DNA from: Novosphingopyxis iocasae
Lineage (GTDB): Bacteria > Pseudomonadota > Alphaproteobacteria > Sphingomonadales > Sphingomonadaceae
Reading direction: 5' to 3'
NCBI RefSeq assembly: GCF_014334095.1
Contig: NZ_CP060495.1
Location: 2,255,001-2,319,000, forward strand
Length of the DNA: 64,000 bases
A model generated the notes under the pieces. The model was not told the origin of the DNA, searched no databases, and saw only the letters and a program-made list of their open reading frames with translations. Position 1 is the first letter of the stretch. Every line of letters starts with the position of its first letter. The translations under genes were made by a program, and so were the position numbers. This document shows positions 39,575 through 50,853 of this stretch, one piece after another.

Positions 39575-41041
39575 TTATGGCTGCTGGATCACCGGTGTCA
39601 GGGGTTTGCGGATGATCGCGGGCGCATCGCGCCATCCGCCGCCCAGCGCCTCGAACACGCGCACCTGATCGGTGGCGACCTGCGCGCGCGCGCTGGCGAG
39701 TTCGGTCTTGGACTGGATCAGCGTGCGCTCGGCATCCAGCACATCTAGGAAGCCGGCGACCCCGCCCTTGTAGAGCCGCCGGACGTTGCGCGCAGCCAGC
39801 GCCGCATCCTCCTCCGCCAGCCGCAGATCTTCCGCCCGGTCCAGATCCTGCGCCAGGCGGGCCATGCTGGTTTCCGTCTCGCGCAGCGCGGTCAGCACGG
39901 TGCCGTCGAAATCGGCAAGCCGCGCTTCTGCCTGCGAATTTGCCGCAGCGAGCTGCGCCCGTGCGACGCTGCGATTGGGGAAGGTCCAGGTAAGTAGCGG
40001 ACCGATGCTCCAGCGAAAGGCGCGATCGCGCACGATATCCTCGATCTTCGTCGCGGTGGTGCCGATCGATGCGCCAAGGCTGATCGAGGGATAGAGATCG
40101 GCCGCTTGAACGCCGATCTGCGCGATCGACTGGGCCAGCCGCCGCTCTGCTTCCCGCACGTCCGGGCGGCGGCGCAGCAGCGCGCGTCCGTCCCCGGTGG
40201 GGATCGGATCGGCGAGAATCGGAGGCTCGGTGCAAGCCGCCGCCGCGCTCGGCTCGTTCTCGGGCAGATCGCCCGTCAGCGTTGCGAGCCGCAGCAGCGT
40301 GCTGCGGCGGTCGGTCAGCAGCGGCGGCAGCGATGCCTCGGTCTGGCGCAGCAGCGTGCGCGCGCGCACCACATCGTTGCGGCCCGTAATCCCCGCAGCG
40401 AAGCGCCGCTGCGTCACGTCCAGATTCTGCTGCGCCCGGCCGATCGCCTCCTTCTGCACCGCGATGCGCAGATTGGCCGAGCAGCTGTCGACATAAGCGA
40501 GCGTCGTCTGCGCAGCGACATTGACGCGGGCAAGATCGAGCGCCGCCAGCGCAGCTCCGGCATTGGCGTCCTGTGCCTCGACTCCGCGCTTCAGCCGCCC
40601 GAACAGGTCGAAATCGTAGGAGATCATTTCGCCCGCTTTATAGACGGGCCCCGGATCGAGCGCTTGCGGAGCGCCCACGGCATCAGCGGACTGCTGGCCA
40701 TAGGTTGGGTTGACGCTGAGCGATGTCTCCGGAAGCCGCCGCGCATCCGCCGCCCCCAGCAGTGCCAGCGCACGGGCCAGGTTCGCCGCCGCCGAACGCA
40801 GATCGGTGTTGTGGACCAGTGCTTTTTCGACGAGCGCATCCAGCGCCGGATCGCGATAGAGCTGCCACCAGTGGTCGGGCAGCGGCTGGCTGGTGAAGGC
40901 CGGTCCATTGTCGGACAGCTCGGGTGCCGGAGCCTCGCCGGTCAGCACCGGCGGCGTGCGATAGTCCGGCCCCGCCGTCTTGCATGCGGCCAGCGAGAGC
41001 AGCGCCGAAGCGGCCACCATCGCGGAGAGAATCTTCTTCAT
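39575..41041 (-). CDS. Outer membrane efflux lipoprotein (NodT family)
   Basis: A 488-residue outer-membrane factor. MKKILSAMVAASALLSLAAC is a lipoprotein signal peptide. Two outer membrane efflux repeats of long helices follow (DLRSAAANLARALALLGAADARRLPETS and LRRRPDVREAERRLAQSIAQIGVQAADLYPSISLGAS). RRPDVREAE is the family hallmark. It is the last gene of the FUSC/DUF1656/HlyD efflux operon, eight bases after the HlyD gene, and supplies the outer-membrane channel. Confidence 0.92.
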   Translation of the reverse strand: MKKILSAMVAASALLSLAACKTAGPDYRTPPVLTGEAPAPELSDNGPAFTSQPLPDHWWQLYRDPALDALVEKALVHNTDLRSAAANLARALALLGAADARRLPETSLSVNPTYGQQSADAVGAPQALDPGPVYKAGEMISYDFDLFGRLKRGVEAQDANAGAALAALDLARVNVAAQTTLAYVDSCSANLRIAVQKEAIGRAQQNLDVTQRRFAAGITGRNDVVRARTLLRQTEASLPPLLTDRRSTLLRLATLTGDLPENEPSAAAACTEPPILADPIPTGDGRALLRRRPDVREAERRLAQSIAQIGVQAADLYPSISLGASIGTTATKIEDIVRDRAFRWSIGPLLTWTFPNRSVARAQLAAANSQAEARLADFDGTVLTALRETETSMARLAQDLDRAEDLRLAEEDAALAARNVRRLYKGGVAGFLDVLDAERTLIQSKTELASARAQVATDQVRVFEALGGGWRDAPAIIRKPLTPVIQQP

Positions 41042-41049
41042 TGCCGCGC

Positions 41050-42006
41050 TCAGTCAGCCAAAGGCGGCTGGCCTTGGCGCAGCGTCGTTTTGGGGCGGGC
41101 GGGCGTCACGGGACGGCCCACCGTGCGACGCGGCACGGCGGTCGGCACGATGGTGACCGACGCCGTGCGCCCCGCGATCAGCCGCATATCGCCCGGAATC
41201 CGGTCGATTACGATGCGCACCGGCACGCGCTGGGCCAGGCGGATCCAGCTGAAGGTGGGCTGGATATTCGGCAGTTCGTTGTTCGAAGGCTGGCTCTCGC
41301 GGTCGTCGATCCCGCCGCTGATGCTGTCGACATGGCCCAGGATCGCGCGATCGTCATTGCCCAGCAGCGTGACGCGCGCCTTGTCCCCGATCCGGAACTC
41401 ATCGAGCTTCGTTTCCTCGAAATAGCCCACCACATAATAGCTGTCGGTATCCACCAGAGCGAACACCGGTTTGCCGGTCTGCACATAATCCCCCGGCCTG
41501 AGGCCGAGATTGGTGACGAGCCCGTTGACCCGGGCGCGCACGGTCGCGCGGTCCAGATCCAGCTCGGCCATCTCCCGATCGGCAATCTTCTGCCGCAGGT
41601 CCGCGCGCGCCAGTTGCACCGCCGTCGCGCGCTGATCGCGCACTTCGGCGGACACCAGATCGCCAAGCGACTGATAACGGGCCGAATCGCGCCGCGCATT
41701 GGCAAGCGAGGCGCGCGCATTCTCGATTCCCGCATCGACCTGCGCCAGTTTGGTCTGGAAACGCGCACGGTCGATCACGAACAGCGGGTCTCCGGCCTTC
41801 ACCGGTTGGTTGTCGCGCACCAGCACGTCGGTCACGATTCCGGATACATCGGCGCTGACTTCCACCACATCAACGCGCACCTTGCCGTCGCGCGTCCAGG
41901 GATCGGTCTCGTAATAGCGCCAGATCCAGACGACCGCCGCGATGGCGAGCGCCACCATCAGCAGGGTCAGCAAAATGCGGCCGATATGGGGAACCAGGCG
42001 GGTCAT
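41050..42006 (-). CDS. HlyD-family periplasmic adaptor (AaeA/EmrA-like)
   Basis: A 318-residue membrane fusion protein. There is one N-terminal transmembrane helix (ILLTLLMVALAIAAVVWIW), then a beta-barrel/lipoyl segment (VDVVEVSADVSGIVTDVLVRDNQPVKAGDPLFVID), a helical hairpin (about 80-150) and the second lipoyl half (RATVRARVNGLVTNLGLRPGDYV). It bridges the FUSC inner-membrane pump and the NodT-type channel encoded on either side. Length and order match E. coli AaeA. The C-terminus carries an unusual Thr/Pro/Arg-rich tail. Confidence 0.92.
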   Translation of the reverse strand: MTRLVPHIGRILLTLLMVALAIAAVVWIWRYYETDPWTRDGKVRVDVVEVSADVSGIVTDVLVRDNQPVKAGDPLFVIDRARFQTKLAQVDAGIENARASLANARRDSARYQSLGDLVSAEVRDQRATAVQLARADLRQKIADREMAELDLDRATVRARVNGLVTNLGLRPGDYVQTGKPVFALVDTDSYYVVGYFEETKLDEFRIGDKARVTLLGNDDRAILGHVDSISGGIDDRESQPSNNELPNIQPTFSWIRLAQRVPVRIVIDRIPGDMRLIAGRTASVTIVPTAVPRRTVGRPVTPARPKTTLRQGQPPLAD

Positions 42007-42018
42007 CCGAACCGCGCC

Positions 42019-42237
42019 TTAGCCCGAAGCAACGGGGTTAGGAAATAGCGCAACGATGGCGCCCGTCAGGATCAGGAACAGCGCCAGTTCGAAGAGCGGG
42101 CGGTTCCAGATGAAACGATAAAGCCGCAGCCGTGCGAGCAACCAGGACAGTAAGCCCGCAAGCAACAACCCGCCAAGAACCGCCGGGACGATGGTGGAAA
42201 TGCTGACCGTATCGCCGATGAGCCATTGGGTCGTCAT
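42019..42237 (-). CDS. DUF1656 membrane protein (AaeX-like)
   Basis: A 72-residue protein with two hydrophobic helices (IVPAVLGGLLLAGLLSWLLA and LFELALFLILTGAIVALF). DUF1656/AaeX proteins are almost always encoded between the FUSC pump and the HlyD adaptor of aromatic-acid efflux systems, as here. Their exact role is unknown. The start codon overlaps the stop of the FUSC gene (42234-42237). Confidence 0.88.
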   Translation of the reverse strand: MTTQWLIGDTVSISTIVPAVLGGLLLAGLLSWLLARLRLYRFIWNRPLFELALFLILTGAIVALFPNPVASG

Positions 42238-44306
42238 GCGCCCCCCGCTCCTTCTTCGGCAAAGGGCGTAACGCTGGGCGCCAGCGCGATGGTGAGCCCC
42301 ACCAGCGCGCGCAGCCTCTCAGGCTCCTTCGTGCCGTGCGAGTGCACCACGTCGCGAACCAGCTGCCGGGACAGCTCCAGCGGTTCGCGAGCCAGCCGGT
42401 CGCCGATCCTGAGCTGGCGGAATTCCTCGGCGATGCTTTGACGCAGCCGCCCGAAACGGTCCGCGAAATCGGGCGCGAACGCCTGATCCTGATTGCGTAG
42501 CGTCAGGAGGTTCAGCCCCACGCGCAGATCGTCGATCGCATCGACATGCTTCAGCGGCTCGCCGTCTTCCAGCATGTCGATCTCCGGCAGCGCCAGCGCC
42601 AGGCGATCGATCGTGAGCAGCAGAAAGCGGTTGCGGTCGGGCACGCGGCGCGCGGTGGCGAGATCGGCGATGTCGGTCCAGATCGCCCGGACCTGCCTTC
42701 GCGCCAGAAAGCGCGACCGGTTGTAGCTGAGGAGATGCAGCGAGGCGGCGGCGAAGGATACGCCCGCCCCGGCTGCGCCGAGGCTGAGCAGCGAACGCTC
42801 GAAATCTGCAGAATAGGCGTTCTGCAGGCCAAGAAATGCAAACCCCAGCACGCAGATGAGCAGGCCCGCGATCGTCATCGAATAGACCATGCCGAGCGGG
42901 AAGAGGGCAAGCGCCAGCACCGCCATCAGCGGCACGAAACTGCTCACCGTGGGAAGCACCGCGAAATTATAGGCAAAAACCAGCGCAAATGCGCAGGAAA
43001 ACCACATCACCAGCCCGATCACCGAGCGCATCTGCTGCGGTTTGCCCAGGATGAACACGCAGGACAGGAAGGCGAACAGCAGCGCGCCGCCCCCGCTCGC
43101 AAAGGCCGTCCAGTACCAAAGGCCCGCGACCCCGAACAAAGCGAGCGCCATCGGCGCGATGTCCCGCAGCGTGAGCAGATAATCATAGGCGCGCACGGGC
43201 CGGGCGGCCTTTGCATCCTCCAGCAGATGCCGGGGAAGCGCCTCATCCTGCCGGATCACCGCGATGAGCTTTCGAAAATCGCCCCAATGCCGCACGAACT
43301 GGGCGAGGCGGTCGCAATAGCCGATCTGGACCAGGCCGTTCCAGTCGGTGCGCTGCGCGAAGCGCTCCGCCGTCCGGTCGATCATGGTCAGGCAGTCCGC
43401 CTGCGTCCGCTCATCCTCCTCGTTCAACCAGCGCGCCACCGCGCCGATGGTGACCGCCAACGCCGGATCGGGGCCCCCGCCCTCGCGCAATTCCACGGTC
43501 CAGTCCTCCAGAGAGGCCATGTCCGAGATCAGATACATGATCGTGCGGCGCAGAATGTTGACGTCGCGGCGGCGCGGCGGCCGGTCCACGATGTCATAGG
43601 GCAGCTGGATGGCGAGCTGATCGAGATTCTGTACCGCGCCCACGAGACCCCGCAGCCGCTCCCGCACGTGGACCCGCTCTTGCCCGGGGTCCGAACCGCC
43701 ATCGACGCGGTTCAGAATGTCGGTCACCCAGCCGCGCGCCTTCTGGCGCCAGTCCTCCATATCGCTTTCGAACTGCGGCATGATGCGGGTGGGGGAAATC
43801 ACGCTGTCGACTGCCGCAACGGCGAGCACGGCGAGCGTGATTTCCGCCACCCGCGCCGCGGTGAGATCGAAAATCTGGTTTGGCTGCATCAAATTGTTGA
43901 AGGCGATGAAGCCGGCGGTCAGGCCGATCGTGAACCAGGTATAGGCGCGCGGCGTCCGGTCGATCATCCGGCCATAGACGGACGCCAGTACGATCAGAAT
44001 CGCGACGAACACCAGCATCGCCTCATGATCGGCGAACAGCGCCACCGCCGCCAGCACCGCGGCGCCGCCCAGCACGGTGCCCACCACACGATAGATCGCC
44101 TTGGTCCGGATCGCACCCGATTGCGGCTGCAGCATCACGATATAGACGGTGAGCGCGGACCAATAGGGATTGGCGAGGTTCTGGCTGAAGCCAATGAACA
44201 GCGCCAGCGTGGTTGCGATCAGCGCCTTGGCGGAGAAGATGGCATCGGATTTGGTCGGCCAGCGCAGCGCCTGCCATACTCCGGCGGGACTGAGCGGTGC
44301 TGCCAC
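42234..44306 (-). CDS. FUSC family inner-membrane efflux protein (AaeB-like)
   Basis: A 690-residue pump, probably for aromatic or other carboxylic acids. Two sets of transmembrane helices are visible, with FSAKALIATTLALFIGFSQNLANPYWSALTVYIVMLQPQSG at the N-terminus, the canonical FUSC entry, and a second set around LTLRDIAPMALALFGVAGLWYW. Cytoplasmic domains lie between and after them. GTG at 44306 is chosen because GGAAGGAAC (44313-44321) is ideally spaced; a TTG at 44363 would add 19 residues. It is the first gene of the four-gene efflux operon, 134 bases downstream of tetR. Confidence 0.9.
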   Translation of the reverse strand: MAAPLSPAGVWQALRWPTKSDAIFSAKALIATTLALFIGFSQNLANPYWSALTVYIVMLQPQSGAIRTKAIYRVVGTVLGGAAVLAAVALFADHEAMLVFVAILIVLASVYGRMIDRTPRAYTWFTIGLTAGFIAFNNLMQPNQIFDLTAARVAEITLAVLAVAAVDSVISPTRIMPQFESDMEDWRQKARGWVTDILNRVDGGSDPGQERVHVRERLRGLVGAVQNLDQLAIQLPYDIVDRPPRRRDVNILRRTIMYLISDMASLEDWTVELREGGGPDPALAVTIGAVARWLNEEDERTQADCLTMIDRTAERFAQRTDWNGLVQIGYCDRLAQFVRHWGDFRKLIAVIRQDEALPRHLLEDAKAARPVRAYDYLLTLRDIAPMALALFGVAGLWYWTAFASGGGALLFAFLSCVFILGKPQQMRSVIGLVMWFSCAFALVFAYNFAVLPTVSSFVPLMAVLALALFPLGMVYSMTIAGLLICVLGFAFLGLQNAYSADFERSLLSLGAAGAGVSFAAASLHLLSYNRSRFLARRQVRAIWTDIADLATARRVPDRNRFLLLTIDRLALALPEIDMLEDGEPLKHVDAIDDLRVGLNLLTLRNQDQAFAPDFADRFGRLRQSIAEEFRQLRIGDRLAREPLELSRQLVRDVVHSHGTKEPERLRALVGLTIALAPSVTPFAEEGAGGA

Positions 44307-44440
44307 CTCGCTGTTCCTTCCGCTGCCCCATGCGAGCTTCAGGATCGAAGACCGCACCCACAAACTTGCCTATGCCGCTTCAGCGCGCGCCACAACCGAA
44401 TTAGGATGGGGAGCGGAGTCCTTCGGGCTGCAGGAACAAC

Positions 44441-45082
44441 CTATCGGGCGTCTTCGGCTATCAGGAGCCGGCAAAACGGCATCGCGATTGCCACCAGATC
44501 AGTAATGGGTTCTTTGCATCCACGGGCGATCCAGCTTCTCGCAATCGCCAGAAGTCCGTGCATGGTGCCTGTTTCGCGAAGGGAGCGCGCCTCTGTATCG
44601 CGCCATTCGGGATCGAGGGTTTGCGCAAGCAATCGGGCGAATTTCGCAAGGCCCTGTTCGAATGCCGTATCGACGGCGGCGCTGATCCCCGACATCTCCG
44701 TCACGAACACGCGAGCGGCTGCGGGTTTTTCGCGCAGCAAGGCGTAATATGCGCTGAGCATGGCCTCCAGACGCGTTTCGGGTTCCGCGTCGTCCAGTTC
44801 GGATGCCGCGGCCTGCACGGTCTCGAGAGCGATCTGGGTGACCGCTTCATAGGCCGCGATCAAAAGCGCCTCGCTGTTCGCGAAAGATTCGTAGAAATAA
44901 CGCGGGGTCAGGCCGGCCGTCCGGCATACGTCCGCCACCGTGGTGTGGCGAAAACCCTGTTCGCCATAGGTATCGACGGCCGCCCAGATAAGCCGCTCCT
45001 GCCGCTCCGCCTGTCGTTCGCCCGACGACTGCCCGCCATAGGTCCGGCCCTGTCCGGTTCCGCTTGTCGTCGCTTTCGCCAA
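44441..45082 (-). CDS. TetR family transcriptional regulator
   Basis: A 213-residue repressor. The N-terminal HTH is AAVDTYGEQGFRHTTVADVCRTAGLTPRYFYESFANSEAL and the C-terminal ligand-binding domain is all-helical. It is transcribed divergently from the Baeyer-Villiger monooxygenase-hydrolase fusion gene across about 62 bases and in the same direction as the efflux operon downstream, so it may control both. The divergent tetR/BVMO arrangement resembles mycobacterial ethR-ethA. A short CCAT..ATGG dyad lies in the intergenic region, but no convincing long operator was found. Confidence 0.9.
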   Translation of the reverse strand: MAKATTSGTGQGRTYGGQSSGERQAERQERLIWAAVDTYGEQGFRHTTVADVCRTAGLTPRYFYESFANSEALLIAAYEAVTQIALETVQAAASELDDAEPETRLEAMLSAYYALLREKPAAARVFVTEMSGISAAVDTAFEQGLAKFARLLAQTLDPEWRDTEARSLRETGTMHGLLAIARSWIARGCKEPITDLVAIAMPFCRLLIAEDAR

Positions 45083-45144
45083 GTGATAACGTCCATTTCC
45101 AGATGGGAATCGATCTCGCCTCCTCTTGCCGATGGAACCCGAAA

Positions 45145-47757
45145 ATGGCCAGTGCTACCGAAACATCCCCTTCCCCCGCTTCCACCGATAGCGGCAGCGC
45201 AATCGAACGGTTCGATGTCCTGATCGTCGGCGCGGGGCTTTCGGGCATCGATGCGGGCTACCGCGTTTCCACCGAATGCCCGAACAAGAGCTATGCGATC
45301 CTCGAAGCGCGCGATGCGATCGGCGGGACGTGGGATCTCTTCCGTTATCCAGGCATCCGATCGGATTCGGACATGTACACGCTGGGCTTTCCCTTCCACC
45401 CCTGGCCGAGCAATCAGGCCATCGCCGATGGCGAGGCGATCCGCGACTATATCGTCGACACCGCGCAAAAATTCGGGATCGACCGGCATATTCGCTTCGG
45501 TTGCAAGGTGGTGGCGGCGCGCTGGTCCACCGAAGACGCCGAGTGGACGCTGGAGATCGATGAGAATGGCGAGAAGCGTCATGTCGCCTGCTCATTTCTC
45601 TACATGGGCAGCGGCTATTATGATTATGCGGGCGGCCATACGCCGCATTTCGAGGACGCGGCGACTTTCCGGGGGCAAATCGTCCATCCGCAGAAATGGC
45701 CCGAAAATCTGAATTATGCGGGCAAGCGCGTCGTCGTGATCGGCAGCGGCGCGACGGCGGTGACGCTGGTGCCCGCGATGGCGCAGACCGCAGAAAAGGT
45801 CACCATGCTGCAGCGCTCGCCGACCTATATCGTCGCACGCCCGTCGCAGGATGCCGTCTCCCGCTGGACGCACGAACATCTGCCGAAGCCGCTCGCCGAC
45901 GGCATTACCAAGTGGAAGAGCGTCGGGCTCGGCATCGCGACCTATGGCTATGCGCGGCGCAAGCCGGCGAAGGTCAAGGCCGCCATCCTCGATGGCGTGC
46001 GCGCACAGCTTCCCGACGGCTACCCCGTGGAACGCGATTTCGAACCGTCCTACAATCCGTGGGACCAGCGCATCTGCCTGGTGCCCGATGCCGATCTGTT
46101 CGACACCATCCGCAGTGGCGATGCCGAAATCGTCACCGATACGATCGAGCGTTTCACGCCCGAGGGCATCGCATTGACTTCGGGCAAGGAATTGCCCGCT
46201 GACATCATCGTCACCGCTACCGGGCTCACGCTCACCATGGTGGGAGGGGTGGAGCTGTACGTGGACGACGACCGCGTCGATCCTGCCGACCGGCTGGTTT
46301 ATAAGGGCATGATGCTGGAAGGCGTGCCGAATATGGCGCTCGCCTTCGGATATACGAATGCCAGCTGGACGCTGAAATGCGACCTGTCAGCGCGCCATGC
46401 CTGCCGGTTGATCAATTATCTCGACGCGCACGACAAGGTGGCCTGCCTGCCGCGCCGCGCGCATTCGGGGATCGAGCCCGAGCCGATGCTGGACTTCAGC
46501 TCCGGCTACGTTCAGCGTGCGGCAAATGTGCTGCCGAAGCAGGGATCGGAAGCACCGTGGAAACTGCACCAGAATTATGCGCTCGATCTCGCTTCGCACA
46601 AGCTGTCGCCCGTCGCCGACGGCACGATGCGTTTCATCGAAGCAGGGCAGGCGCTGGACGACGCGGTTGCGCCCAAGTCGAAGCGCAAGCCGATGGCTTT
46701 GGCCGCAGCCGTCGGGACCGCTGCGGTCGGCACCGCGCTGCTCACACGGAGTCAAAGCATGCATGACGAATCAACCGAGAATAGGGAAACGGCGTTGACC
46801 TCAGCGAAGCGGATCGGCGGCGGCGCTCTGCTGGCCGGGCTTGTGGGAGGTGCCGCTCTTGCCGGTTTTGCCGCCTTGGCCCGTTCGCGGGCGGAAGCGG
46901 CGGTGCCTGCCGATGGCCAGTTCGTCCGCGTAAACGGCAAGCGCGTGCATTACCGGGACGAAGGATCCGGCCCTGTGGTCGTGATGATCCATGGCCTTGC
47001 CGGACAGATGCGTAATTTCTCCTACGCGCTGCTCGACAAGCTGGCGAGCGATCACCGCGTGATCCTGATCGACCGTCCGGGGTCTGGCTATTCCGACCCG
47101 ATCGACAGCGCCACGATCCGCAGCCAGGCGGCGCATATTGGCGATGCTCTGCAGGCGCTGGGTCTCGACCGGCCACTGGTGGTCGGCCACTCGCTGGGCG
47201 GCGCCGTTGCGCTCGCTCTCGCGCTCGATCGGCCGGACGCGGTTGGTGGTCTCGCTCTCGTGTCACCGCTCACCCACCCCTTGACCGATGTTTCGCCAGC
47301 ATTCGACGGGCTGGCCATTGCCTCGCCCGCCGCGCGCTTTGCCGTGGCATGGACCCTGGCAGCCCCGATGATGATGATGCGCGGTGAGAAAGGGGCGCAG
47401 GCAGCGTTCGCCCCCGAACCGCTGCCCGGCGATTTCGCGACGCGGGGCGGCGGGGCCTTGCTGGCCCGCCCGGGCAATTTCCAGGCGGCAAGCGCCGACC
47501 TCAATGCCGCGCCGACAGATTTGCCCGGCATGGTATCACGCTATCCCTCGCTCGCGATGCCAGTATCGATCCTGTTCGGCCACGACGATCCGGTGCTCAA
47601 CCCGGAAACGCAGGGGGAAGCCTTCGCGGCAGCCGTCCCCGGTGCCGATCTTACGGTGATCGATGGGGGGCATATGATACCGGTAACGCAGCCTGACGTG
47701 GTCGCCGACTGGATTCGCAAACGCGTCGGTAATTCCGGCGCTGGTAAAGCCGAGTGA
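45145..47757 (+). CDS. EthA-type Baeyer-Villiger monooxygenase fused to an alpha/beta hydrolase
   Basis: An 870-residue bifunctional enzyme. Residues about 20-510 resemble mycobacterial EthA: FAD motif GAGLSG (29-34), EARDAIGGTWDLFRYPGIRSD, the Baeyer-Villiger fingerprint FRGQIVHPQKWP (175-186) and NADP motif GSGATA (200-205). A linker with two hydrophobic stretches (about 520-535 and 555-578) leads to an alpha/beta hydrolase with MIHGLAGQMRN oxyanion region, VVGHSLGG nucleophile Ser683, FGHDDP Asp and GGHMIP His (near 842). One domain could form an ester from a ketone and the other cleave it. An internal ATG at 46759 could allow separate hydrolase production. It overlaps the next gene by GTGA. 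Confidence 0.9.
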   Translation: MASATETSPSPASTDSGSAIERFDVLIVGAGLSGIDAGYRVSTECPNKSYAILEARDAIGGTWDLFRYPGIRSDSDMYTLGFPFHPWPSNQAIADGEAIRDYIVDTAQKFGIDRHIRFGCKVVAARWSTEDAEWTLEIDENGEKRHVACSFLYMGSGYYDYAGGHTPHFEDAATFRGQIVHPQKWPENLNYAGKRVVVIGSGATAVTLVPAMAQTAEKVTMLQRSPTYIVARPSQDAVSRWTHEHLPKPLADGITKWKSVGLGIATYGYARRKPAKVKAAILDGVRAQLPDGYPVERDFEPSYNPWDQRICLVPDADLFDTIRSGDAEIVTDTIERFTPEGIALTSGKELPADIIVTATGLTLTMVGGVELYVDDDRVDPADRLVYKGMMLEGVPNMALAFGYTNASWTLKCDLSARHACRLINYLDAHDKVACLPRRAHSGIEPEPMLDFSSGYVQRAANVLPKQGSEAPWKLHQNYALDLASHKLSPVADGTMRFIEAGQALDDAVAPKSKRKPMALAAAVGTAAVGTALLTRSQSMHDESTENRETALTSAKRIGGGALLAGLVGGAALAGFAALARSRAEAAVPADGQFVRVNGKRVHYRDEGSGPVVVMIHGLAGQMRNFSYALLDKLASDHRVILIDRPGSGYSDPIDSATIRSQAAHIGDALQALGLDRPLVVGHSLGGAVALALALDRPDAVGGLALVSPLTHPLTDVSPAFDGLAIASPAARFAVAWTLAAPMMMMRGEKGAQAAFAPEPLPGDFATRGGGALLARPGNFQAASADLNAAPTDLPGMVSRYPSLAMPVSILFGHDDPVLNPETQGEAFAAAVPGADLTVIDGGHMIPVTQPDVVADWIRKRVGNSGAGKAE

Positions 47758-48842
47758 CACCCTCCGGCATGACGCGCGATCGGATCTGCGTGATCCCGGG
47801 GGAAGACGCCGCTGCCGAAGCGGTTATGCACGTTCTTGCCGTGTTGAAGGCACTCGATACCGGTCTCGACTGGCATGTGTGCGAGAACACGTCCACTATC
47901 GGAGAGGACGGCCGGCCGCAGCTGGCTGCCGAAGCGAAAGCGGCGATCGACAGCAGCCGGGCAACGCTGTTCGGGGCCACCGGTGGGCCCAATTCCGCCG
48001 CGCTGTTTTATCTACGCTGGGGCAAGCAGACCTTTGCCAATGTTCGCCCCACGCGGTGGAGCGAGGGCATGCCGAGCCCGCTGGCCAAGCCCGAGGGCAT
48101 CGATCTCGCGATCGTGCGGGAAAACCTCGAAGATGCCTATGTCCTGATCGAAGGCGATCTGCCGCAGCTCGCCCCGCTGAAGCTCAGGAGCCGCACCGCC
48201 GGGATCGGCCCGGAAGCGATGGGCGAGGGGGCATTTTCGGTAAAGGCGATCACCCGCGAAGGCTCGCTCCGCGTCGCGCGCTTTGCCTTCGAACTTGCGC
48301 GCCAGCGCAAGGCCGCAGGCGGCGCGGGGCGGGTGACGGCGAGTGCGAAATACAACATGCAGCCGCGCACCGATGGCCTGTTCATCGAGTGTGCTAACGA
48401 GGTCGCGAACGACTTTCCCGATATCGACTTCGACGTTCTGATCGTGGACGATTGCGCCCACCGGATCGTGCGCGATCCGCAGCGCTTCGACGTGCTGTTA
48501 TTGCCCAATCTCTACGGCGATATCCTGTCCGACGCGGCGGCGGGATTGACCGGCGGTCTCGGGCTGGCGGCAAGCGGCTGTTACGGCGCGGATTACGCCT
48601 ATTTCGAGTCCGCGCACGGCACCGCCCCCGATATTGCGGGCAAGGGCATCGTGAACCCCGTCGCCACACTGCTGTCCGCTGCGATGCTGCTCGACTATTG
48701 CGACCGTGCGCTGATTGCAGCCTCGCTGCGCAAAGCGATCGACCGTCTGCATGAAGACGGCCGCGTCCTGACGCCCGATGTCGGCGGCATCGCCTCGACC
48801 GCGCAGGTCTGCGATGCCGTATTGGAGCATATGCAGATATGA
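47754..48842 (+). CDS. Isocitrate/isopropylmalate dehydrogenase family protein (LeuB/IDH-like)
   Basis: A 362-residue NAD-dependent beta-decarboxylating dehydrogenase. ATLFGATGGP, the VRENLEDAYVLIEG loop, ASAKYNMQPRTDGLF (catalytic Lys region), NLYGDILSDAAAGLTGGLG and ESAHGTAPDIAGKGIVNP are family motifs. Details (VDDCAHRIVRDPQRFDVLLLPNLYGD) look closer to NAD-isocitrate or tartrate dehydrogenases than to true LeuB, so the substrate is probably another 2-substituted 3-hydroxy acid. GTG start at 47754 overlaps the monooxygenase-hydrolase stop; ATG at residue 6 is also possible. Its stop overlaps the leuC-like start. Confidence 0.88.
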   Translation: MTPSGMTRDRICVIPGEDAAAEAVMHVLAVLKALDTGLDWHVCENTSTIGEDGRPQLAAEAKAAIDSSRATLFGATGGPNSAALFYLRWGKQTFANVRPTRWSEGMPSPLAKPEGIDLAIVRENLEDAYVLIEGDLPQLAPLKLRSRTAGIGPEAMGEGAFSVKAITREGSLRVARFAFELARQRKAAGGAGRVTASAKYNMQPRTDGLFIECANEVANDFPDIDFDVLIVDDCAHRIVRDPQRFDVLLLPNLYGDILSDAAAGLTGGLGLAASGCYGADYAYFESAHGTAPDIAGKGIVNPVATLLSAAMLLDYCDRALIAASLRKAIDRLHEDGRVLTPDVGGIASTAQVCDAVLEHMQI

Positions 48843-50239
48843 CGATGGACCAGAGCCTGTTCGAGAAACTCTGGGCGCTCCACCGGGTCGAGGTACTCGA
48901 AGGCGCCCGCGATCTGATCGCTATCGACCTGCATCTGCTCCACGACTTGAGTGGCCCCGGCGCGCTCAATGCGCTGAAGAAGCGTGGCATGGCCGTCGCC
49001 GCGCCCGGACAGACCTTTGCCGTTCCCGATCATGGTGTCGGGACCATGCCCGGGCGCGGGGACGACAGCAGCGAGGCGAGCCGCAAGACGCTGCAACCGC
49101 TGCGGCGCCTGTGCGCGGACATGGGCGTCACGCTGTTCGACCTCGACTCCGAAGAACAGGGGATCGTGCATGTGATCGGCCCGGAACAGGGGCTGACGCT
49201 GCCCGGGCTCTCGATTGTGTGCGGCGACAGCCATACCTGCACGCAAGGTGCCTTCGGTGCGCTCGCATGGGGAATCGGATCGACCGAGATACTCCAGGTG
49301 CTCGCCACGCAGATGCTGATCCTCGAAAAGCCGAAATCGATGCGCGTGACGATCGACGGCACGCTGGCGGACGATGTCGATGCGAAGGATCTGATCCTTG
49401 CGATCATCGGTCGCTGGAGCGCGGAAGGCGGGGCGGGTCACGTGATCGAATTCGCCGGGTCGGCGGTGCGGGCGCTCGGCATGGAAGCGCGGATGACGCT
49501 GTGCAATCTGGCGGTCGAATTCGGCGCGCGCTTCGGATTGATCGCGCCCGACGAGACGACCTTCGATTACCTGCGTGGCCGTCCTTTCGCGCCGCGAGGC
49601 GATGCTTGGGATACCGCGCTTTCGCACTGGCGCACGCTGCCCTCTGATCCCGACGCTCGCTTCGATGCGGAACTGCATCTCGATGCAAACGACGTCGTGC
49701 CGCACATCACCTGGGGCGTATCGCTCGATCAGGTTGCGCCTGTCACCGGAGCAATTCCCGAGGAGCCAAGCGATGCAGCGGGCGCCAAGGCCCACCGCCA
49801 AGCGCTGGATTATATGGGACTGGAAGCGGGCAGCAGGATCGCATCGACCCCGATCGACCGCGTCTTCATCGGTTCTTGCGCGAATGGAAGGCTGTCCGAT
49901 CTCGAGCGGGCAGCGCAGGTCGTCGCCGGGCGGCGTGTCGCAGACGGGGTCGAGGCGTGGGTTGTTCCGGGATCGCGGTCCGTAAATCGCGCTGCTCAGG
50001 AGCGCGGTCTCGATGCCGTATTTCGCGAGGCGGGCTTCGAGTGGCGCGAGCCGGGCTGTTCGATGTGCTTGGCGATGAACGGCGATCAGGTCGCCAGAGG
50101 AGAGCGCTGCGTATCCACCTCGAACCGCAACTTCGTCGGGCGGCAGGGGCCGGGCGCCCGAACGCACGTCACCGGTCCCGCGGTCGCGGCAGCCAGCGCG
50201 ATATTGGGACGCATCGGCACGCCGGGAGAGCTGGCATGA
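48839..50239 (+). CDS. LeuC-like aconitase-family dehydratase, large subunit
   Basis: A 466-residue [4Fe-4S] hydro-lyase subunit. CGDSHTCTQGAFGALAWGIGSTE, the cluster cysteine in GSCANGRLSDLERAA, and CSMCLAMNGD near the C-terminus give the three cluster ligands. Length equals 3-isopropylmalate dehydratase large subunit. It is paired with a LeuD-like subunit directly downstream and a dehydrogenase upstream. No isopropylmalate synthase is in the cluster, so a leucine-pathway role is doubtful and another 2-alkylmalate-type substrate is plausible. ATGA overlaps at both ends. Confidence 0.9.
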   Translation: MTMDQSLFEKLWALHRVEVLEGARDLIAIDLHLLHDLSGPGALNALKKRGMAVAAPGQTFAVPDHGVGTMPGRGDDSSEASRKTLQPLRRLCADMGVTLFDLDSEEQGIVHVIGPEQGLTLPGLSIVCGDSHTCTQGAFGALAWGIGSTEILQVLATQMLILEKPKSMRVTIDGTLADDVDAKDLILAIIGRWSAEGGAGHVIEFAGSAVRALGMEARMTLCNLAVEFGARFGLIAPDETTFDYLRGRPFAPRGDAWDTALSHWRTLPSDPDARFDAELHLDANDVVPHITWGVSLDQVAPVTGAIPEEPSDAAGAKAHRQALDYMGLEAGSRIASTPIDRVFIGSCANGRLSDLERAAQVVAGRRVADGVEAWVVPGSRSVNRAAQERGLDAVFREAGFEWREPGCSMCLAMNGDQVARGERCVSTSNRNFVGRQGPGARTHVTGPAVAAASAILGRIGTPGELA

Positions 50240-50853
50240 ACGAGGCATACCCACCTGTGCTGGATTCGCTGGCGGTGGTTCTCCGGCTCGAGAATGTCGA
50301 CACCGACGTCATCACGCCCATCGGTCGCGTGCTGGAAGGGCCGCAGGCGATCGTCGACTATGCGTTCGAACCGCTGCGCTTTGCCGATGACGGCACCAGG
50401 CGCGCCGACGATCCCTTCGCCGACCCCGATCGGCAAAATGCGCAGATCCTGATCGCCGGGCGCAATTTCGGTTGCGGCAGCAGCCGCGAGACGGCGGCGC
50501 AGGCGATCAGGGGCATGGGCTTTCGCTGCGTCATCGCGCCCAGCTTCGGCGATATCTTCTACTCGAACTGCCTGAAGAACGGCGTGCTCGCCATCGCGCT
50601 CAGCAGCCGGGAGGTCGAGCGGATCATGGACTCGGCGGACGAGCTTTCGCGGATCGTCGTGAGGCTGCCCGAACAGCGGATCGAGCTGGACGGGCATGTC
50701 GCCCAGTTCGAAATCGACCCCCTATCGAAGCGCATGCTCCTGGGCGGGATAGACGAGATCGGTTTACTGCAAGGTTACGCGGAAGCGAAGGCGGACTTCG
50801 ATCGCGCAGATGCGGCGGCGCGGCCGTGGGTCCGCCCCCGCAAGCGCAAATAA
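50236..50853 (+). CDS. LeuD-like aconitase-family dehydratase, small subunit
   Basis: A 205-residue swivel-domain subunit partnering the LeuC-like protein. It has NVDTDVITPIGRVL (LeuD usually has NVDTDQIIP), GRNFGCGSSRETAAQAI (substrate loop), and the FGDIFYSNCLKNGVLAI segment. The start at 50236 is set by an ATGA overlap with the leuC-like stop. It is the last gene of the tight operon. The DNA composition changes just beyond its stop codon. Confidence 0.9.
   Translation: MNEAYPPVLDSLAVVLRLENVDTDVITPIGRVLEGPQAIVDYAFEPLRFADDGTRRADDPFADPDRQNAQILIAGRNFGCGSSRETAAQAIRGMGFRCVIAPSFGDIFYSNCLKNGVLAIALSSREVERIMDSADELSRIVVRLPEQRIELDGHVAQFEIDPLSKRMLLGGIDEIGLLQGYAEAKADFDRADAAARPWVRPRKRK

Follow-up and report, generated by a model that had tools for sequence, protein, structure and literature searches.

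The locus and its reading frame

The window analysed here is a 64,000-nucleotide stretch of the Novosphingopyxis iocasae genome, which is closed in one contig of 3.19 Mb and 100% complete. Its forward strand carries a gene (45145..47757, +) in which translation, Pfam and homologues place a Baeyer-Villiger monooxygenase (BVMO) and an alpha/beta hydrolase on one chain. The single 870-residue frame reported by a first-pass annotation of the sequence was borne out, both by a translation free of stops across 45145-47757 and by the full-length frame kept in relatives. The start ATG is matched by an aligned ATG in two relatives (L070 and L071). An internal ATG at 46759 (Met539) had also been put forward as a start for a separate hydrolase; there is no ATG at that position in either of these relatives, and separate production of the hydrolase from it is not supported by the aligned sequences.

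Monooxygenase and hydrolase domains

The N-terminal domain (residues 1-505; 45145..46659, +) was assigned as a type I, EthA-like BVMO from motifs, Pfam and Foldseek. All four signature motifs of type I BVMOs are present: two Rossmann motifs of the form GxGxx[GA] (GAGLSG at 29-34 and GSGATA at 200-205) and two BVMO fingerprints (GGTWDLFRYPGIRSD at 60-74 and FRGQIVHPQKWPE at 175-187), the latter having been defined as [GA]GxWx4[FY]P[GM]x3D and FxGx3Hx3W[PD] (PMC9044951). These motifs are near-invariant across 45 aligned rows. Pfam placed an FMO-like domain in this half, and the top Foldseek matches of the domain were solved BVMOs. The motif form HPQxWP is only suggestive of the EthA subgroup, the EthA sequence itself standing outside the alignments and trees used here.

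The C-terminal alpha/beta hydrolase domain (residues 586-870; 46900..47754, +) was delimited by using Pfam, motifs, conservation and structure comparison, with Abhydrolase_1 matched at 610-847 (E 7.5e-28). The GHSLGG motif at 681-686, with its Asp and His partners, was found as first described and is conserved across relatives: Ser683 is kept in all 26 hydrolase rows, and Asp815 and His843 in 25 of the 25 rows that have a residue there. Together with an oxyanion HG, this half has the fold and the Ser-Asp-His triad of an alpha/beta serine hydrolase. PDB sequence searches and Pfam were in agreement on both halves.

Linker and possible membrane anchor

The AlphaFold model (mean pLDDT 83.7) consists of two confident domains separated by a linker predicted to be disordered at residues 507-564 (46663..46836, +; pLDDT <50) and a helix at 559-586 (46819..46902, +; pLDDT about 50-83). 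Each of these regions holds one of two weakly hydrophobic stretches, 516-534 and 561-579, with maximum Kyte-Doolittle 19-residue means of 1.57 and 2.04. Both stretches had been proposed as membrane anchors, and this reading stays plausible for one of them. The first stretch is modelled as disordered and non-helical, and the Sphingomonas fusions described below lack a counterpart of it. The second lies in the modelled helix and matches the hydrophobic segment that begins most free hydrolases directly before the domain, a segment whose counterpart is kept in the fused proteins. From hydropathy and the model, anchoring through the second stretch only is plausible. If the chain crossed the membrane once, with the BVMO in the cytoplasm, the hydrolase would lie on the opposite side.

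Fused relatives

The fusion was recovered at full length in Erythrobacter HI0063 (L070, 88% identity) and in the CG_2015-16 Erythrobacter MAG (L071, a contig that is also G101; 86% identity), and over about 840 aligned residues in three Sphingomonas genomes (L072-L074: Leaf20, S. rubra and S. abaci). Many relatives have the two genes apart, as would be expected if a sequencing or assembly error had joined them in this copy. The junction is nevertheless the same in six fused members drawn from at least five independent assemblies. Homologues are thus not always separate genes, and the recurrence of the fusion in two Erythrobacter and three Sphingomonas genomes excludes chance and assembly error, leaving an artefact with a negligible probability.

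The fusion is rare: among 398 genomes of the window's family, only that of the MAG and the host genome itself had it at a fusion-level threshold, which was set by us and which diverged fusions may escape. Several further candidates were rejected. The N-terminal extensions of Solimonas L097/L109, L102, L113, L158 and L066 hold no hydrolase by Pfam, and in Caballeronia L156, which was recovered as one piece by tblastn, a stop codon splits the genes.

Separate gene pairs and origin of the fusion

BVMO and hydrolase occur as separate close genes in Bradyrhizobium, Methylobacterium, an Acidobacteria MAG, Cupriavidus, Burkholderia and Caballeronia, as well as in some members of the window's own family; rows were picked by similarity to the query, so that such frequencies are not population estimates. 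The start and stop of the two genes overlap in L173 and L157, and an SDR or other sequence lies between them in L091, L067 and L059. The initial reading of a complete EthA-type BVMO joined to a hydrolase is well supported by the motifs, by the homologous fusions and by this adjacency of separate genes elsewhere.

In the BVMO tree, which was built by a quick search with SH-aLRT support only, without bootstraps, and which has one long branch (L067), the fused rows form one clade (SH-aLRT 100). This clade is nested in a 13-row clade (SH-aLRT 96) whose sampled members are solely fused or neighbouring-gene, often with an SDR; the paired members L056, L059 and L157 are placed outside it. Given this nesting, the gene most likely arose when a BVMO gene and a hydrolase gene lying in tandem were joined, and what had been the anchor at the hydrolase N terminus would then have been taken into the linker. 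In the hydrolase tree, the free hydrolase L051 lies inside the fused clade, so that either the BVMO half was lost there or fusion took place twice.

Regulation and genomic surroundings

A TetR-family regulator (44441..45082, -; Pfam TetR_N) is divergent from the fusion gene, and a divergent TetR gene is kept beside four other fusions and several pairs (L070, L071, L072, L073, L075, L157 and L158). Between the two genes is a conserved 21-bp block, TGATAA-N6-TTTCCAGAT (45084..45104, +), which does not vary among the five TetR-bearing fused loci and has one site in its own genome at ≤2 mismatches. This candidate element abuts the TetR start, and so could be an operator, a promoter or both. The regulator probably controls the fusion gene, perhaps through this block. 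A scan for sigma-70 promoters and terminators found none, and a simple inverted-repeat operator was rejected, with just 6-bp palindromes present.

On its other side, the TetR gene is adjoined by an efflux-type cluster of outer-membrane factor, membrane-fusion-like and FUSC genes (39575-44363, -). Downstream, a second leuB/leuC/leuD-like set (47754-50853) begins at the fusion stop codon, either by a GTGA overlap or from an ATG at 47769. The leuB match is much stronger at G000:C1:3158791-3161779, where it is accompanied by a leuC-like gene. The downstream set was rejected as part of the pathway: it is missing beside the fusion in relatives, and its LeuB2 was found in 0 of 149 other family genomes sampled at E 1e-70.

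Proposed function

We favour, at a probability of about three in four, a natural bifunctional enzyme that was born of a tandem gene pair and that takes a ketone through an ester or lactone to an alcohol and an acid on one chain. The N-terminal FAD/NADPH monooxygenase would insert oxygen beside the ketone, and the C-terminal serine hydrolase would cleave the resulting ester or lactone to an alcohol (or hydroxy acid) and an acid. These activities and the order of the steps are a good inference. The substrates are probably hydrophobic ketones, those derived from secondary alcohols among them. In relatives, an SDR lies beside BVMO and hydrolase in L059, L091 and L156, an acyl-CoA ligase adjoins L067 and L156, a GMC oxidoreductase adjoins L059 and the fused L072, and aldehyde dehydrogenase genes are also among the neighbours, a setting that would fit a route from secondary alcohol to acyl-CoA. 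A route of this kind has been proposed for subterminal alkane oxidation by way of an EthA-type BVMO and an esterase, both of which were raised on the n-C28 alkane (PMC6304351).

The two domains might instead act on different substrates, with the fusion serving to co-regulate them or to bring them together at the membrane, and not to link two steps in sequence. Ten of the hydrolase relatives examined in the window's family had no BVMO fingerprint in the 16-kb stretches read, so that a BVMO is not a necessary partner of the hydrolase; by structure comparison, its fold is also common to esterases, C-C hydrolases, dehalogenases and epoxide hydrolases. Dehalogenase and epoxide-hydrolase chemistry, however, uses an Asp nucleophile and is ruled out by the Ser nucleophile. 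The adjacency of the two genes moreover recurs across alpha- and betaproteobacteria, is seen in an Acidobacteria MAG and extends to a second BVMO type, with a hydrolase relative following a BVMO of 25% identity (L176:4163-6960; fingerprint FEGRTFHSARWD). We therefore consider separate substrates unlikely. A still smaller chance is given to a BVMO half devoted mainly to S- or N-oxidation, as of thioamide prodrugs by EthA, with the hydrolase as a detoxification esterase. EthA-type enzymes accept such substrates (PMC9044951) and the neighbouring cluster is of the TolC-MFP-FUSC efflux type, but every BVMO fingerprint is present, and the hydrolase pairing and the SDR neighbours in relatives suit ketone metabolism better.

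A bolder form of the bifunctional reading, which we hold only tentatively and regard as rather doubtful, is a self-contained ketone cleavage in which a single membrane-associated chain would hand the ester from its monooxygenase to its esterase, such fusions having evolved at least twice with opposite domain orders. If active, the fusion would be a natural template for the one-pot ketone cleavage cascades that are built artificially in biocatalysis, and would allow a direct test of whether joining improves ester transfer from BVMO to esterase. A hydrolase family that cannot be placed by sequence alone also gains a likely partner from the conserved pairing.

Comparison with known systems

EthA stands alone as a protein of about 490 residues, whereas here a hydrolase is fused to the monooxygenase, a comparison made by motifs. 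In ethR-ethA, the TetR gene is divergent from the monooxygenase gene, and the fusion locus resembles this arrangement. The mymA operon comprises a BVMO, lipR, an SDR and an acyl-CoA ligase; relatives of the fusion carry BVMO, hydrolase and SDR genes, joined in some of them by an acyl-CoA ligase, whereas the gene in the window has no SDR or acyl-CoA ligase alongside. Gordonia acmA/acmB and Pseudomonas mekA/mekB are separate gene pairs of a BVMO and a hydrolase or esterase, encoding the same two activities together, but as two proteins rather than one. The same holds for the separate BVMO-hydrolase clusters of Sphingobium AntQ-1 (PMC9836352), likened here by description. With the EthA/MymA group of Mycobacterium tuberculosis, the fusion shares both BVMO fingerprints and the two Rossmann motifs (PMC9044951).

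A hydrolase and a BVMO are also joined in one 833-aa protein on Deinococcus radiodurans plasmid MP1 (DR_RS15615; L159:2933-5434). There the order is opposite, Abhydrolase_3 and then BVMO, and the hydrolase is of a different family; by its domains this is an independent, separately evolved fusion. No published description of the fusion in the window was found in the open-access literature searched. The pairing of BVMO and esterase is known already; what is new is its conserved one-chain form.
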